Source of the DNA: Thermoleophilia bacterium
GTDB taxonomy: Bacteria; Actinomycetota; Thermoleophilia; Gaiellales; SKUG01
Assembly (NCBI GenBank): GCA_025964435.1
Contig: JAOPYV010000174.1
Coordinates: 1 to 40,453 of the forward strand
Direction of reading: 5' to 3'
DNA length: 40,453 nt
Part shown: one piece after another, positions 6,378 through 22,889 of the stretch
Numbering within the stretch: position 1 is the stretch's first letter
How the letters are laid out: the number at the start of each line of letters is the position of its first letter
The notes under the pieces: model-generated
What the model saw: the letters and a program-made list of their open reading frames with translations, nothing else
What the model was told of the DNA's origin: nothing
Databases searched by the model: none
Position numbers and translations under genes: made by a program

Positions 6378-7358
6378 ATGGACGACACGACACCGGCAAT
6401 CAAGGCGCGCGGGCTGGTCAAGCACTACGGCGAGACGCGCGCCGTCGATGGCGTCGACCTCGACATCCCACGGGGCATCGTGTTCGGACTGCTCGGCCCC
6501 AACGGCGCCGGCAAGACGACGATCATCCGCATGCTCGCGACGCTCGTCACGCCTGATTCGGGCAGTGCCGAGGTGCTGGGCCACGACCTGCGCGATGGCG
6601 ATGCCGTCCGCAGCGTCGTCAGCCTGACAGGACAGTTCGCGTCGGTCGACGAGGACCTGACAGGGTCCGAGAACCTGATCCTGCTCTGTCGACTGCGTGG
6701 CTTCGCGCGTGCGCGCGCGCGAGAACGAAGTGCACAGCTGCTTGCCGCCTTCGGGCTCGAGGAAGCTGCGGCGCGACAGGTGAAGACCTACTCCGGTGGC
6801 ATGCGGCGCAGGATCGACATCGCCGCGAGCATCGTCGTCACGCCGGAGGTGCTGTTCCTCGACGAGCCCACGACCGGACTGGATCCGCGCAGTCGCAACC
6901 AGGTCTGGTCGATCATCCGCGCGCTCGTCGCCGCCGGCACCACCGTGCTGCTGACGACGCAGTACCTGGACGAGGCCGATCAGCTCGCCGACCAGATCGC
7001 CGTGATCGAGCACGGCAAGGTGATCGCGCTCGGGACGAGCGGCGAGCTCAAGGCGTCGGTCGGCAGCGGCTCGCTCACCGTTCGGCTCGTCAACGCCGAA
7101 GACCGTCCCGCCGCACTCGAGCTGCTGGCGCGCGAGCTCGACATCGACGTGGAGACCTCCACCGACCCGGTGGCACTGGTCGCGCGCGGCGTGCAGCCAG
7201 ATGCTGCAGCGGCAGCGCTCGGCGAGCTGGCCCGCGTTGGCATCGCCACCAGCGACTTCGCCCATGGACAGCCCAGCCTCGACGAGGTCTTCCTCGCCCT
7301 CACCGGTCGACCGACGTCGTCCTCGGACGACCACTCGCACGCGGAGGTTCCGGCATGA
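6378..7358 (+). CDS. DrrA-type ABC exporter ATP-binding protein
   Basis: Walker [22 protein letters not shown] signature, [16 protein letters not shown]-terminal DrrA-like domain; GAAGG upstream of ATG 6378. Confidence 0.92.
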
Positions 7359-8200
7359 CCATGACACCCGAAGCACCGATCAGCGCGCTCGTGATCGACG
7401 ACGCATTCCGCGACACGATCACCCTGCGCGAGCGCCCACCACAGCCCGGCCCGATCGCCGTGTCGCTGACCTTCGGCTGGCGCGCGCTGCTCAAGATCAA
7501 GCACGTGCCCGAGCAGCTGTTCGACGTCACGGCGTTCCCGATCATGACGACGCTCATGTTCACGTACCTGTTCGGCGGTGCGCTCGCGGGATCGACCGCC
7601 GAGTACCTCGACTTCCTGCTGCCGGGCATCCTCGCCCAGACGATCGTGCTGATCACGATGTACAGCGGCATGGGCATGCGCCTGGACATCGAGAAGGGCG
7701 TGTTCGATCGCTTCCGCTCGACGCCCGTCTGGCAACCGGGCGTGCTCGTCGGCATGCTGCTGGGCGACCTCGTGCGCTACCTGCTCGCCTCGACGATGGT
7801 GTTCGGGCTCGGGCTCATCCTCGGCTTCCGTCCGGATGGTGGCGTGCTCGGCGTGCTCGCGGCGATCGGGCTGGTGCTCGCCTTCGCCTTCAGCCTGTCG
7901 TGGGTGTGGCTGCTCGTCGGGCTCTACGCCCGCACCGCGCAGTCGGTCATGGGCATCTCGATGATGGTGCTCTTTCCGCTCACCTTCATCAGCAGCGTGT
8001 TCGTCGACCCGACCACGATGCCCGACCCGCTCGAGTGGGCCGTCGACCGTAACCCGATCACCTTCCTGGCCGACGGCTCGCGCGCGCTGATGCAGGGTGA
8101 CCCGGTGGGGAACACGGTCACGGTCGTGCTGCTCAGCTGCATCGGGCTCGTCGCCGTGTTCGGTCCGCTGACGATGCGACGCTTCCGCACCGCGAGCTGA
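7355..8200 (+). CDS. DrrB-type ABC-2 permease
   Basis: ATGA overlap with the ATPase; multiple TM segments; [29 protein letters not shown] typical of ABC-2/DrrB permeases. Confidence 0.9.
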
Positions 8201-17116: not shown

Positions 17117-17740
17117 GTGACCACTCACAACAGTGCGCGCGCCCCCGGCACCATGCTCGACGATTCCGAGACACCCGACACCTCCGCTCCGCACTCCCGC
17201 AGCACTGCAGCGGAACGGCGCGAGCGCGTGCTCGAGGTCGCGATGCACGAGTTCTCCGAGCGCGGCTACGAAGGCGGGTCGACGCAGCGAATCGCTGCTG
17301 CGGCAGGCATCAGCCAGGCGTATGTCTTCCAGCTCTACGGATCCAAGCCGCGGCTCTTCCTCGCCGTCATCGAGCGCTGCATGGAGGACATGCTCACGCT
17401 CTTCGAGACGGCGAGCTCGGGCCGCGGAGGCTCGGCGGCGCTTCGCGCGGTCGGCGATGCGTACCTCGAGATGATCGCGAATGATCCGGTGCGCTTCCAG
17501 ATGCAGCTCGTCGGCTACGCCTCCTGCGCGCAGCCGGACGTGCGCGCCGCGATGCGGACCGGATTCGGCCGCGTGGTCGAGCTGGCCGAGCAGCGGAGCG
17601 GCCTGCCCAACGCGGAGGTCGCGCGCTTCTTCGCCGACGGCATGCTGCTCAACGTCGTGACGGCGATGGGACTGACGAGCGAGCCGACGCCGTGGGGCGC
17701 CCGCCTGATCGACGGCTCGATCGGACTCGGACGCGGCTAG
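17117..17740 (+). CDS. TetR/AcrR family transcriptional regulator
   Basis: RRERVLEVAMHEFSERGYEGGSTQRIAAAAGISQAYVFQLYGSKPRLFLAVIER HTH; GTG start 17117 or ATG 17153. Confidence 0.88.
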   Translation: MTTHNSARAPGTMLDDSETPDTSAPHSRSTAAERRERVLEVAMHEFSERGYEGGSTQRIAAAAGISQAYVFQLYGSKPRLFLAVIERCMEDMLTLFETASSGRGGSAALRAVGDAYLEMIANDPVRFQMQLVGYASCAQPDVRAAMRTGFGRVVELAEQRSGLPNAEVARFFADGMLLNVVTAMGLTSEPTPWGARLIDGSIGLGRG

Positions 17741-18045
17741 CGCGAGCCGACGAACCGCCCGAGCGCGGCGACGAGCTCCTCGGCGCGCGCCTCGCGGGCA
17801 TCCGCCGGAGCGTGGACCACGCAGTGGTTGACGTGCTCGCCGACCACGCCGAGCGCAACCTTGTCGACCGCGGCACGCACGGCGGAGAGCTGGGTGAGGA
17901 TGTCGAGGCAGTAGCGATCCTCCTCGACCATGCGTGAGATGCCGCGCACCTGGCCCTCGATGCGGCGCAGCCGGCGCAGCAGCGCGACCTTGTCGTCGGA
18001 GTAGCCCGGGAGTTCCTGTGCGTGGGTGTCGGAGGAGGCGGCCAT
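17737..18045 (-). CDS. csoR: CsoR-type copper-sensing repressor
   Basis: RRLRRIEGQVRGISRMVEEDRYCLDILTQLSAV...HVNHCVVH with the C-H-C ligand set; adjacent to copZ-copA. Confidence 0.9.
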   Translation of the reverse strand: MAASSDTHAQELPGYSDDKVALLRRLRRIEGQVRGISRMVEEDRYCLDILTQLSAVRAAVDKVALGVVGEHVNHCVVHAPADAREARAEELVAALGRFVGSR

Positions 18046-18060
18046 GCAGCTCAGCGTAGC

Positions 18061-18077
18061 ATACCCCCGGGGGGTAT
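18061..18077. promoter_or_regulatory. CsoR operator (ATACCCCCGGGGGGTAT)
   Basis: Near-perfect palindrome matching the ATACCCCC...GGGGGTAT CsoR box type, between divergent csoR and copZ. Confidence 0.85.
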
Positions 18078-18106
18078 TTGACCGGGCTTGGAGCACCGAC
18101 TACGAT
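18078..18106 (+). promoter_or_regulatory. Predicted copZA promoter
   Basis: -35 TTGACC (18078-18083), 17-bp spacer, -10 TACGAT (18101-18106). Confidence 0.6.
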
Positions 18107-18149
18107 GCAGGGGAGGTGGGCACGACCCACGCGACCGAGGGAGCTTTCC

Positions 18150-18380
18150 ATGAGCACGCCGAATCCAGGACCGACCGAGCTGCATTTCGCCGTCTCTGGC
18201 ATGCACTGTGGAGGCTGCTCGAACGCGGTGAGCCGTCGCCTCGGCAAGCTCGACTCGGTCGATTCGGTCGAGGTGTCGCTCGATGACAAGCTCGTGCGGG
18301 TCCTCGGGACGGCGCTGGTCGCGCAGGAGCTGCGCGCGGCGATCACCGAGGCGGGCTACGAAGCACGGCTGTTGGCATGA
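18150..18380 (+). CDS. copZ: Copper chaperone, HMA domain
   Basis: SGMHCGGCSNAVSRRL metal-binding motif; ~76 aa; directly precedes copA. Confidence 0.88.
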   Translation: MSTPNPGPTELHFAVSGMHCGGCSNAVSRRLGKLDSVDSVEVSLDDKLVRVLGTALVAQELRAAITEAGYEARLLA

Positions 18381-20572
18381 CCGGTGCGACCACCACCGAC
18401 CTGCGCATCGAGGGCATGACCTGCGCCGCGTGCGCGCAGCGGGTCGAGCGCTCGCTCGGGTCGGTCGACGGCGTGGCTGCACATGTCAATTTCGCGACGG
18501 GCATCGCGCACGTCGAGCACGGGCACGACGTGGACGTGGCCACGCTGGTGGATCGGGTCGACCACGCGGGCTACGACGCGCACGTCCATGACACGGGCGG
18601 CGGGGGCCATGCCCACCACGAGGAAGATCCGCGCGGGCTGCGGCTGCGGCTGCTCGTCGCCATCCCGTTGACGCTGCCGATCGTGCTGCTGATGTTCGCC
18701 ACGGCGCTTCGCTTCGAGGGCTGGGAGCTGGTCGCGCTCGCGCTCGGCACGCCCGTCGCGCTCTGGTGCGCCGCGCCGTTCCATCGCACCGCACTGCGCA
18801 GCGCGCGCCACCGCGCCGCGAACATGGACACGCTCGTCTCGATGGGCGTTCTGGCCGCGTGGAGCTGGTCGGCCGTCTCGCTGCTGCTGCTCGGCGGCAA
18901 GGATTCCTACGTCGAGGTCGCGGCGGTGACAACGACGCTGCTGCTTGCTGGCCGCGTGCTCGAGGCGCGGGCGCGCACGAGCGCGGGCGATGCGATTCGC
19001 AGCCTGCTCGAGCTCGCGACGAAGTCGGCGCGCGTGCTCGGCGACGATGGCACTGAACGCGAGGTCGAGCCGGGCGCGCTGCGCGTCGGCGATCGGCTCG
19101 TGGTCCGCCCGGGCGAGCGGATCGCGACCGACGGCATCATCGACCAGGGCGCGTCGGCGATCGACCGCTCGATCGTGACGGGCGAGACCGTGCCCGAGGC
19201 GGCGGGCGTCGGCGATGAGGTGCTGGGCGGCACCGTCGTCGTCGATGGACGCGTCATCGTGCGCGCCACACGGGTCGGCGCCGACACCGCGCTCGCCCAG
19301 GTGGCACGCCTCGTGGAGGCGGCGCAGGCGGGCCGCGCGCAGATCCAGCGCCTGGCGGATCGCATCTCCGCCATCTTCGTGCCGATCGTGATCCTCCTGG
19401 CCGCCGCGACGCTTGCCGGCTGGCTGGTCTCGGGCGCCGAGGTGGGCGTCGCCATCACGGCCGCGGTGGCGGTGCTCATCGTCGCCTGCCCCTGCGCGCT
19501 CGGCCTCGCGACGCCGGCGGCGCTGCTGGTCGGGACGGGCCGCGGCGCGCAGCTCGGCATCGTGATCGGTGGACCCGAGGTGCTGGAGCGCGTCCGTGAC
19601 ATCGACACCGTGCTGCTGGACAAGACCGGCACGATCACGACCGGCGAGTTCGCGCTGGAGCAGGTCGTGCCGGCTGGCTCGACCGATGTCGACGATGCGT
19701 TGCGCACGGCATGGGCGCTCGAGGCGGCGAGCGAGCATCCGATCGCACAGGCGGTCAGCCGCGGCGCGCAGGAGCGCTTGGCAGTGGGCGCGGACGCGGC
19801 GGGCAGCGCCCCCGAGGTCGAGGACTTTGCGAACCATGCAGGACGCGGCGTCGTCGGCGTCGTCGATGGACGTCGCGCCGTCGTCGGCCGCGAGCCGCTC
19901 TTCGTCGAGCTCGGCCTCACCATCCCCGAGGAGCTTGCGGCAACCGTTGCGGCGGCGCGGGGCGATGGTGCGACCAGCGTGCTCGTCGGGTGGGACGGTT
20001 CCGCGCGCGCCGCGCTCGTGCTGCGCGACCAGGTCAAGCCCGACAGCGTCGCTGCCATCGCAGCGCTGCATGGATTGGGACTGCGCACCGAGCTCGTCAC
20101 CGGGGACGCGAGCGCCGTGGGCCACGCGGTCGCGCAGCGCGTCGGGATCGCCGATGTCACTGCGGAGACGATGCCGGCTGACAAGGACGCGCTCGTCGCC
20201 GCCCGTCAGGCCGACGGCCGGCGCGTGGCGATGGTCGGCGACGGCATCAACGATGCACCGGCGCTCGCACGCGCCGACCTCGGCATCGCGATCGGCACGG
20301 GCGCGGACGTCGCCATCGAGGCGAGTGACCTGACGCTCGTCTCGGGCAGCCTGTGGGCCGCCGTCGATGCGATCCGCCTCGCCCGCGCGACCCTGCGCAC
20401 GATCCGCGGCAACCTGTTCTGGGCATTCGCCTACAACGTCGCAGCGCTGCCGCTCGCCGTCGCCGGACTACTCAGCCCGATGGTCGCCGGCGCGGCAATG
20501 GCAGCATCCAGCCTCTTCGTGCTCGGCAACTCGCTCCGCCTCCGCAGCTTCCGCACCGCCCGCCCGCACTGA
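18377..20572 (+). CDS. copA: P1B-type copper-translocating ATPase
   Basis: N-terminal HMA GMTCAACA, CPCALGLATPAAL, DKTGTIT, GDGINDAPALARADLGIAIGTG; ATGA overlap with copZ. Confidence 0.93.
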   Translation: MTGATTTDLRIEGMTCAACAQRVERSLGSVDGVAAHVNFATGIAHVEHGHDVDVATLVDRVDHAGYDAHVHDTGGGGHAHHEEDPRGLRLRLLVAIPLTLPIVLLMFATALRFEGWELVALALGTPVALWCAAPFHRTALRSARHRAANMDTLVSMGVLAAWSWSAVSLLLLGGKDSYVEVAAVTTTLLLAGRVLEARARTSAGDAIRSLLELATKSARVLGDDGTEREVEPGALRVGDRLVVRPGERIATDGIIDQGASAIDRSIVTGETVPEAAGVGDEVLGGTVVVDGRVIVRATRVGADTALAQVARLVEAAQAGRAQIQRLADRISAIFVPIVILLAAATLAGWLVSGAEVGVAITAAVAVLIVACPCALGLATPAALLVGTGRGAQLGIVIGGPEVLERVRDIDTVLLDKTGTITTGEFALEQVVPAGSTDVDDALRTAWALEAASEHPIAQAVSRGAQERLAVGADAAGSAPEVEDFANHAGRGVVGVVDGRRAVVGREPLFVELGLTIPEELAATVAAARGDGATSVLVGWDGSARAALVLRDQVKPDSVAAIAALHGLGLRTELVTGDASAVGHAVAQRVGIADVTAETMPADKDALVAARQADGRRVAMVGDGINDAPALARADLGIAIGTGADVAIEASDLTLVSGSLWAAVDAIRLARATLRTIRGNLFWAFAYNVAALPLAVAGLLSPMVAGAAMAASSLFVLGNSLRLRSFRTARPH

Positions 20573-20589
20573 CATCGCCGCTATCGCAT

Positions 20590-20743
20590 GGGGTTCTGCG
20601 ATTTTGTCACGACATACGTGACAAACGTGAGACAGCACAGGGCCGAAATCGTCTGACGCAGGCGAGCGCAGGTGCATTTCGGCGCGCAGGGCCCGCGGTG
20701 TCGCACGAAACTCACGATATACGTGACAAAATCGAGGAACCCC
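20590..20743. repeat. Nested inverted-repeat element
   Basis: Outer arms GGGGTTCTGCGATTTTGTCACG (20590-20611) versus reverse complement of 20722-20743, 20/22 identical; inner arms GCCGAAAT (20642-20649) / ATTTCGGC (20676-20683); left arm holds TTTGTCACG-ACATA-CGTGACAAA (20603-20625). Confidence 0.75.
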
Positions 20744-20800
20744 GATCGATACGCGGGGCTGCTGCACGAACGCTCACCCATGGCGACCAAAGTCGAGTCA

Positions 20801-20819: not shown

Positions 20820-20883
20820 GTTCAGTGCGGCGGCTCAGTGCGGTGCGGGCTCAGCGCGCGGGCGGCTCAATGGCGCGGCTCAG
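20820..20883. repeat. Degenerate tandem repeat, CTCAGYGCGS-like units
   Basis: TCAG/TCAA-containing units at about 20820, 20834, 20850, 20866 and 20879, spaced 13-16 bp. Confidence 0.5.
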
Positions 20884-22187
20884 CGCGCGGCGCTGGCGAG
20901 GCCGGCCTGGCCGATGTCAGTGCGCATCTGGCGGCCGGGGACCCGGATGTGCGTGGCGGCTGCGTAGGCGCGCTCGATCGCGAGCTCGAGCTGCGGCGCC
21001 CATGCGCTCACGGTGACCACACGCCCACCGAGCGCATCGATTTCGTCGGTCGATCCATCGACACGCGTCGCGAGCCCGAGGAAGAGCTCCACGCCGTCGA
21101 TCGCGCGGGCGGCATCGAGCCCGGTCACGCGCACCGGCTGCGGCTCCAGCTGGAGCGTCGGGTAGTGCTCCGCAGCGACGCAGACGGCGACCGCATGCCC
21201 CGTGGCGGCGACATCGACGTCTGTCGGCAGCGTTCCGTGCGCGGCCCGATCGAGCAGGTCGAGCAGGTCGGCGTCGAGCACGCGCACCAGCGCCTGCGTC
21301 TCCGGGTTTCCGAAGCGCGAGTTGTACTCGAGCACCTGCGGGCCGTCGGACGTCAACATCACGCCGGCGTAGATGACGCCGTGGAACGGCGTCCCCGCCT
21401 CGCGCAGCTGGTCGACGATCGGCTGGATCACCGCGCGCGCAAGTCGCGCCGCCTCGGCCGGATCCAGCTCGGCGCTCGGCGCATAGGCGCCCATGCCGCC
21501 CGTGTTCGGGCCGGCGTCGTCATCGCCGAGCCGCTTGTAGTCACGAGCCGCAGGCAGTGGGACGACGGAGCTGCCGTCGACGATCGCCATCACGCTCGCC
21601 TCCTCGCCGGTCACGAGTTGCTCCACGAGCACGCGGTCGCCACTGACACCGAAGCGACGCTCGACCATCAGCACCTCGACCGCCTCGCGGGCGAGCGCGG
21701 GCGTGGGACACACGAACGCGCCAAGTCCGGCCGCCAGGCCGTCCGCCTTGACCGCCACGGCGCCACCGAGCTCCTCGATCGCGGCGTGCGCCGCCTCGAC
21801 CGAGTCGCAGCTGCGCCAGGCCGGCGTCGGCACGTGCGCGCGCTCCATCAACTGCTTCGCGAAGCGCTTGCTGCCCTCCAGCTGCGCCGCCGCTCCGCTC
21901 GGTCCGAGGCAGGTCAGCCCGGCAGCGGCCATGCGCGACGCGAGCCCCGCGACGAGCAGGTCTTCGGCACCGATGATGACGAGGTCCGGCGCCAGCTGGA
22001 TCGCCACGGCAACGAGGCCGTCGAGGTCACCGAGGTCGACATCCGGATGGCACGTCGCGAACTGCGCGATGCCTGCGTTGCCGGGTGCCACATGCAGCTC
22101 CGCCAACCGCGGCGATACGGCGAACGCGTGGCAGAGCGCGTGATCGCGGCCTCCGCCACCGATGACGAGGACACGAAGACGGGACAT
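20880..22187 (-). CDS. purD: Phosphoribosylamine--glycine ligase
   Basis: VLVIGGGGRDHAL, VKADGLAAG, AARDYKRLGDDDAGPNTGGMGAYAP, VLEYNSRFGNPETQ motifs; start MSRLRV at 22187. Confidence 0.95.
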   Translation of the reverse strand: MSRLRVLVIGGGGRDHALCHAFAVSPRLAELHVAPGNAGIAQFATCHPDVDLGDLDGLVAVAIQLAPDLVIIGAEDLLVAGLASRMAAAGLTCLGPSGAAAQLEGSKRFAKQLMERAHVPTPAWRSCDSVEAAHAAIEELGGAVAVKADGLAAGLGAFVCPTPALAREAVEVLMVERRFGVSGDRVLVEQLVTGEEASVMAIVDGSSVVPLPAARDYKRLGDDDAGPNTGGMGAYAPSAELDPAEAARLARAVIQPIVDQLREAGTPFHGVIYAGVMLTSDGPQVLEYNSRFGNPETQALVRVLDADLLDLLDRAAHGTLPTDVDVAATGHAVAVCVAAEHYPTLQLEPQPVRVTGLDAARAIDGVELFLGLATRVDGSTDEIDALGGRVVTVSAWAPQLELAIERAYAAATHIRVPGRQMRTDIGQAGLASAAR

Positions 22188-22337
22188 TTCGGGATGCGAA
22201 TTCGATGCGGGCATGCTGGGAAGCTTCGCAGGTCGAGCCCAGATCAGCAGCATTTCGTACGGAACCTGTCTATTCCACCCCGACGATACGCAAACCGGAC
22301 GACGCTGGATTACGAACGGGGTAGTGGTGTTTCTGTC

Positions 22338-22889
22338 ATGAACTTTTTCGCAAAGCCAAGGGGGGTGGGCAGCATCGTTGCCCGTCAAGATACGAATCCT
22401 CGAGCTGGACGCGCTGCGTTCGGAGATCCGCGCCGCGACCTGCCCGAGATGGTGGACCGCATGGGCGTGGCGATCGAATCGTTGCGCACGCAGTGGCGCA
22501 CGCAGGCGCACCTCGGCACCCACGAGCGCATGGCCATCTCCCAGCTCCGCGTGCACGGCCCGATGCCGATGAGCGAGCTCGCCGCCCGCATCTCACTCTC
22601 GCGCGCCGCAGTGACCAGCCTGATCGACCGCCTCGAGCAGGATGATTGGGTCAAGCGCGAGCCCGACGACCACGATCGTCGACGCACCGTGCTGAGCCTG
22701 CTGCCCAAGGCCACGACGGCATTCGACAGCGTCTCGGAGGACTATTCCGCGCACCTGGCCACGCTGGCCGGGGACCTGTCGGATGATGAGTGGCGCACCG
22801 TTGCCACGTTCGTCGGCGGGATCACGGAGCTCTCCCAGCGCCATGCCGATCGCCTGCGCGCCACCGCGGTGGAACGTTCGCTCACGTAG
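22338..22889 (+). CDS. MarR family transcriptional regulator
   Basis: GPMPMSELAARISLSRAAVTSLIDRLEQDDWVKREPDDHDRRRTVLSLL winged HTH; start ATG 22338 or 22449. Confidence 0.85.
   Translation: MNFFAKPRGVGSIVARQDTNPRAGRAAFGDPRRDLPEMVDRMGVAIESLRTQWRTQAHLGTHERMAISQLRVHGPMPMSELAARISLSRAAVTSLIDRLEQDDWVKREPDDHDRRRTVLSLLPKATTAFDSVSEDYSAHLATLAGDLSDDEWRTVATFVGGITELSQRHADRLRATAVERSLT

Follow-up and report, generated by a model that had tools for sequence, protein, structure and literature searches.

A dispersed palindromic repeat family in a Thermoleophilia genome and its probable partnership with an AbiEi-fold, Vsr-like nuclease

The closest described counterpart of the locus reported here is the REP/BIME repeats with their RAYT (TnpA-REP) enzymes, in which a single-copy gene lies between its own palindromes, units of 20-40 bp are dispersed in extragenic positions in copy numbers of hundreds, inverted unit pairs occur, and several gene-family pairs may be present in one genome (PMC2817692, PMC3733652). 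The RAYT enzyme is a Y1/HUH transposase; as movers of REP-like repeats the known candidates are HUH tyrosine transposases, and for some REP classes (CGTC) no enzyme is known (PMC3733652). Proteins resembling the one discussed below have been described from other settings. EDxHD homing endonucleases are represented by I-Bth0305I (PDB 3r3p), which dimerises on a target of nearly 60 bp (PMC3943268); AbiEi antitoxins belong to the type IV AbiE systems (PDB 6y8q and Rv2827c, 1zel) and bind inverted repeats in their own promoter (PMC7319586); and the DUF559/Vsr-like proteins include Caulobacter VsrA, which has been studied as a nuclease of mismatch-repair type with a tie to cytosine methylation and for which no connection with dispersed palindromes is described (PMC12907096). 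We found no open-access full text that connects dispersed palindromes with DUF559, AbiEi or Vsr-like proteins, but the pairing could have been described in a preprint or a subscription journal.

The window, a stretch of 40,453 nucleotides from a Thermoleophilia bacterium (contig JAOPYV010000174.1), contains a convergent gene pair, the copper-ATPase gene copA (18377-20572, + strand, with E1-E2 ATPase and HMA domains) and purD (20880-22556, - strand, with GARS domains). We found that the gap between them holds two imperfect palindromes of about 48 bp, inverted to each other and separated by a 59-nt linker. Unit a, a quasi-palindrome of about 48 nt at 20590..20637 (- strand, from the alignment; 20588-20638 in the covariance model, 59.4 bits), has its CCCC end outward at the left, and unit b, of 47 nt at 20697..20743 (+ strand; 20695-20745 in the covariance model, 65.7 bits), has its CCCC end outward at the right. 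The core dyad of unit a, TCACG-ACATA-CGTGA (20607..20621), lies inside a perfect 9-bp stem, TTTGTCACG/CGTGACAAA, at 20603-20611/20617-20625, and that of unit b, TCACG-ATATA-CGTGA, is at 20712..20726. The linker (20638..20696) contains an 8-bp inverted pair, GCCGAAAT/ATTTCGGC, at 20642-20649/20676-20683. The nine bases CTATCGCAT (20581..20589) adjoin unit a and recur unchanged next to the right-hand one of the two units at the nuclease gene of contig C121 described below. To the left of the element, a TetR-type regulator, a CsoR-type repressor (PF02583), a small HMA-like open reading frame and the copper-type P-ATPase occupy 17117-20572, likely a copper-handling cluster.

The outer arms of the element, 20590-20611/20722-20743, match at 20 of 22 nt; no other 22-nt inverted pair in the 40-kb window combines this spacing with at most two mismatches, and two shuffles gave none. 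The fold is also much stronger than that of shuffled sequences, with z -6.8 for one strand and -7.5 for the other. An earlier note on this DNA had recorded the paired outer arms, the inner 8-bp pair, the 9-bp stem of the left arm and the dyad of the right arm, all of which are present, and had combined them into a single nested element. However, matches within the host genome span both units and leave out the middle of the linker, so that the inner pair lies outside the repeated unit, and the pairing of the outer arms follows from the resemblance of units a and b. The element is best read as two separate homologous repeat units rather than one nested element.

A BLAST search of the host genome (a Thermoleophilia draft of 3.2 Mb in 213 contigs, 88% complete) with the window element gave 20 matches, resolving into 16 units at 12 loci, which we call family F1. 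It is thus multicopy in its own genome, and not the single-copy sequence that the earlier note had set against its own reading. The consensus from the 16 units, GGTGTCGCACGTTNCTCACGAYATGCGTGAGGAAATCGCAGAACCCC, ends in GGTG and CCCC and lacks the GTAG or CGTC tag of known REP classes (PMC3733652). A covariance model recovered the same 16 units in this genome and no convincing extra ones, and each of the five core pairs was kept in 14 to 16 of them. Solitary units were found at C21, C92, C116, C145, C148 and C207, pairs with CCCC outward at C77, C170 and C39, a pair with CCCC inward at C93, and a unit on each side of a gene at C121; the alternating orientation characteristic of REP/BIME elements is thus present in the inverted pairs at C77, C170, C39 and C93. 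At most loci a gene's 3' end lies within about 20-330 bp, as judged from open frames and codon composition, and F1, like REP/BIME elements, is a short, imperfect, multicopy and extragenic palindrome. At C207 (L041, 1501-2985), about 100 bp separate the solitary unit from the 3' end of an apparent second purD-like gene, on whose other side are palindromes of the type found at C10; the window element likewise adjoins a purD.

No copy of F1 was found in relatives, either by BLAST (60 genomes) or with the covariance model (128 other genomes of the order), and pattern scans gave no match in GTDB contigs or IMG/VR. F1 is a dispersed REP-like family private to this genome, with none in 128 others of the order. 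The interpretations offered earlier are partly supported. The MITE/BIME-like one is right in kind, and its BIME-like option essentially correct, the units being multicopy, extragenic and paired as in BIMEs. Units occur singly and in either pair orientation, and no target-site duplication was recognised by eye at F1 loci. A long structured RNA was rejected, since an Rfam search of the element returned no family, no pair among the 16 units had changes on both sides, and most other loci have a single unit. The operator-like dyad forms the conserved core of each unit and may well serve protein binding, probably by the family's own nuclease and not by a regulator of copA or purD.

That nuclease gene, of about 330 codons, is at 7059-8030 (- strand) of C121, between F1 units at 7002-7052 and 8004-8054, and its likely start codon lies in or at the right-hand unit. 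It is the only gene between the two units, with no toxin gene there, and an AbiE type IV toxin-antitoxin system, in which an AbiEii toxin gene adjoins the antitoxin gene, was rejected for this reason. The protein matched the AbiEi_4 profile (E 1e-8), with weak matches to MTES_1575 and DUF559. With its AlphaFold2 model, which was good (pLDDT 86.8, pTM 0.63), Foldseek found the AbiEi antitoxin 6y8q (E 9.9e-6), Rv2827c (1zel) and, for I-Bth0305I, the catalytic domain (3r3p; probability 1.00, TM 0.70 on the target, but E 0.019). When PDB sequences were searched with a profile, the matches were 3hrl (2.8e-10), PvuRts1I (1.2e-5) and again 3r3p (0.0045). Twelve relatives have invariant GSxG..SxxE, D, ExDG..H and D residues, the layout to be expected for a Vsr/EDxHD active site; the EDxHD-type catalytic fold is thus seen by profile and by Foldseek, and the corresponding residues in the 12 relatives. 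It is an AbiEi-type DNA-binding module, making up the N-terminal two thirds, fused to a C-terminal, DUF559-like, Vsr/EDxHD homing-endonuclease-like domain. It shares the fold of its N-terminal two thirds with AbiEi antitoxins but has an extra nuclease domain, and shares its C-terminal nuclease superfamily with VsrA.

Four further genes of this kind occur in the genome, at C30, C73, C10 and, with a broken frame, C1, and five of the five such genes are bracketed by palindromes belonging to five different families, one per gene. A joint query with the families of C30, C73, C10 and C1 gave 75 matches in the genome, all four families being dispersed, with approximate unit numbers (strands merged) of 19 for C30, 6-8 for C73, 20 for C10 and 13 for C1. 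Several units of the C30 family are less than 500 bases from contig ends (C34:467, C156:247, C150:113 and C54:206); contigs may thus have ended at the repeats, with copy numbers possibly underestimated. C10-type units occur in tandem with steps of about 60 bp, and units of different families are often present at one intergenic site (C41, C205 and C207), as if shared intergenic spaces were preferred landing sites; mixed-family clustering was also seen near 39.4, 197 and 909 kb in G249, a complete genome from another family of the class. The fifth nuclease gene (L031/L113, at C1) is split over two frames and its palindromes are still dispersed, possibly representing a dead nuclease gene with a surviving repeat family. 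An outer arm, GTCGCAC, is common to units of F1, of the C30 family and of one family in the sister genome G002 (L089, L100 and C121), and the proteins of these families rank with the more similar pairs, a hint that enzyme and repeat have co-evolved. Similarity of proteins and similarity of units showed a weak though significant correlation (Mantel r 0.23, p 0.009), on which our conclusions are not based.

Based on these data, F1 and the C121 gene probably form a REP-RAYT-like system with an unrelated nuclease that spreads the repeat. REP-RAYT in the strict sense was rejected, since no Y1/RAYT transposase (PF01797) was found in the host genome, where controls matched, and the flanked gene encodes an AbiEi_4 plus DUF559-like protein; with the draft 88% complete, a RAYT could be missed. 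The arrangement matches that of REPs and RAYTs (PMC2817692), with a single-copy gene between its own palindromes, these being dispersed and extragenic, with inverted unit pairs, and with several gene-family pairs in the genome. The system would work like REP-RAYT, yet lacks in this draft the Y1 transposase that defines it. In addition to the different enzyme, the units are longer than REPs (about 45-50 bp), without a GTAG tag, and number tens rather than hundreds.

The relationship of the catalytic domain to I-Bth0305I, its nearest homing endonuclease in fold, raises the alternative that a homing-type nuclease recognises the unit, a long palindrome whose length would suit such an enzyme, in which case variant or empty units would be cut, repair from other copies would keep the family uniform or once have put the gene between two units, and spread to new sites would be rare and by other means. 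We consider this doubtful, since a single gene copy with many units per family is the reverse of a spreading homing gene, and the units on both flanks are complete rather than halves of a split site. Known EDxHD homing endonucleases differ further from the C121 protein, which lies outside any intron or intein, has a DNA-binding region of AbiEi rather than phage type, and is bracketed by full palindromic units that are also dispersed. The same units may instead be viewed as operators of an AbiEi-type protein, serving autoregulation and a scattered regulon, with a nuclease domain that is incidental or degenerate; this would agree with the promoter binding described for AbiEi proteins (PMC7319586) and with the position of the C121 start codon. 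It is nevertheless improbable, because most F1 loci are near gene 3' ends, including the site between convergent genes in the window, units are found downstream of the nuclease gene too, and the catalytic-type residues are invariant in 12 relatives.

The association of such genes with bracketing repeats, on which the REP-RAYT-like reading draws, recurs outside this genome. Of the full-length genes in a set made up of four sister genomes and one more genome from the order, 14 of 18 had similar segments on both sides, scoring above every control (121 window positions, maximum 27; 220 shuffles, maximum 20), and with the four genes of our genome 18 of 22 were bracketed (p 2e-19). A joint query with twelve families of the sister set yielded 64 matches across the other five genomes, showing the families to be dispersed in their own genomes, and 0 in the genome of the window; in G086, the most distant of the set, only the two flanking copies were found. 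The best database match of a gene from one sister genome was in a Thermoleophilia (Actinomycetota) metagenome assembly (JAOPYW010000230.1, 100% identity), an indication that the host genome, too, belongs to Thermoleophilia. More widely, the gene family was present in 91 of 397 sampled Actinomycetota genomes (E 1e-30). Flanks matched (score >=24) at 42 of 88 Actinomycetota loci outside the sister genomes of the order, loci of one genome not being independent, compared with 3 of 211 control positions, chosen arbitrarily on those contigs and not as matched genes (p about 6e-23). Folding was stronger in the shared segments than in segments drawn at random from these loci (median z -2.34 versus 0.00), and at a few loci (e.g. 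L209 and L281) the shared flank segments were long, possibly representing repeats of a different type.

In the 1.2 Mb of G249 that was read, three of the four families tested were dispersed, recurring in up to 13 (L199), 9 (L244) and 4 (L239) places, counted in 60-base bins of which some were adjacent, and none for L240; reversed queries gave 0. A weaker excess was seen among GTDB Thermoleophilia loci picked by short peptide patterns, with 13 of 70 positive at score 22 (two of the 13 seem to repeat genes of a genome already counted) versus 6 of 117 controls. Since a bracketing repeat is lacking at roughly every second locus of the phylum, and at most of those in this GTDB Thermoleophilia set, the pairing is common but not obligatory. 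That the units derive from an unrelated transposon as MITE-like remnants, or act as bidirectional terminators, with nuclease genes nearby through hitch-hiking, is very improbable, for although two inverted units form a strong hairpin between convergent genes in the window and a transposase could be missing from an incomplete draft, the hairpin is followed by no T-run, the two pair orientations and many solitary units are unlike fixed terminal repeats, and hitch-hiking leaves unexplained five genes bracketed by five families, a pattern repeated in other genomes.

Dispersal of the units, their absence from relatives, the bracketing of each gene by its own family, the recurrence of this bracketing across Actinomycetota and the domain folds were observed here; binding, cleavage and transposition are inferred. 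The AbiEi-EDxHD protein probably binds the palindrome of about 48 bp as a dimer, with one subunit per arm, which is the natural reading given that AbiEi proteins bind inverted repeats and that the known enzyme I-Bth0305I is dimeric on its long target. The nuclease domain would then nick or cut at the unit core, and host repair or replication would copy the unit into new extragenic sites, the path from cut to new copies being possibly single-strand hairpin transfer or repair synthesis. The gene would remain single-copy and retain two units in cis, as do RAYT genes with their REPs.

Taken across Actinomycetota, this looks like a second enzyme family, unrelated to RAYT, that is associated with palindromic repeats. 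On balance, we lean towards regarding the DUF559-like AbiEi-fold plus Vsr/EDxHD nucleases of Actinomycetota as a non-HUH class of REP-mobilising enzymes spanning the phylum, in which every enzyme maintains and spreads its own palindrome family of about 50 bp and whose origin is independent of REP-RAYT. The one-to-one tie between nuclease and repeat suggests what a large set of DUF559-like proteins may do, and provides many natural enzyme-target pairs, in which the long palindromic site can be read from the flanks of each gene.
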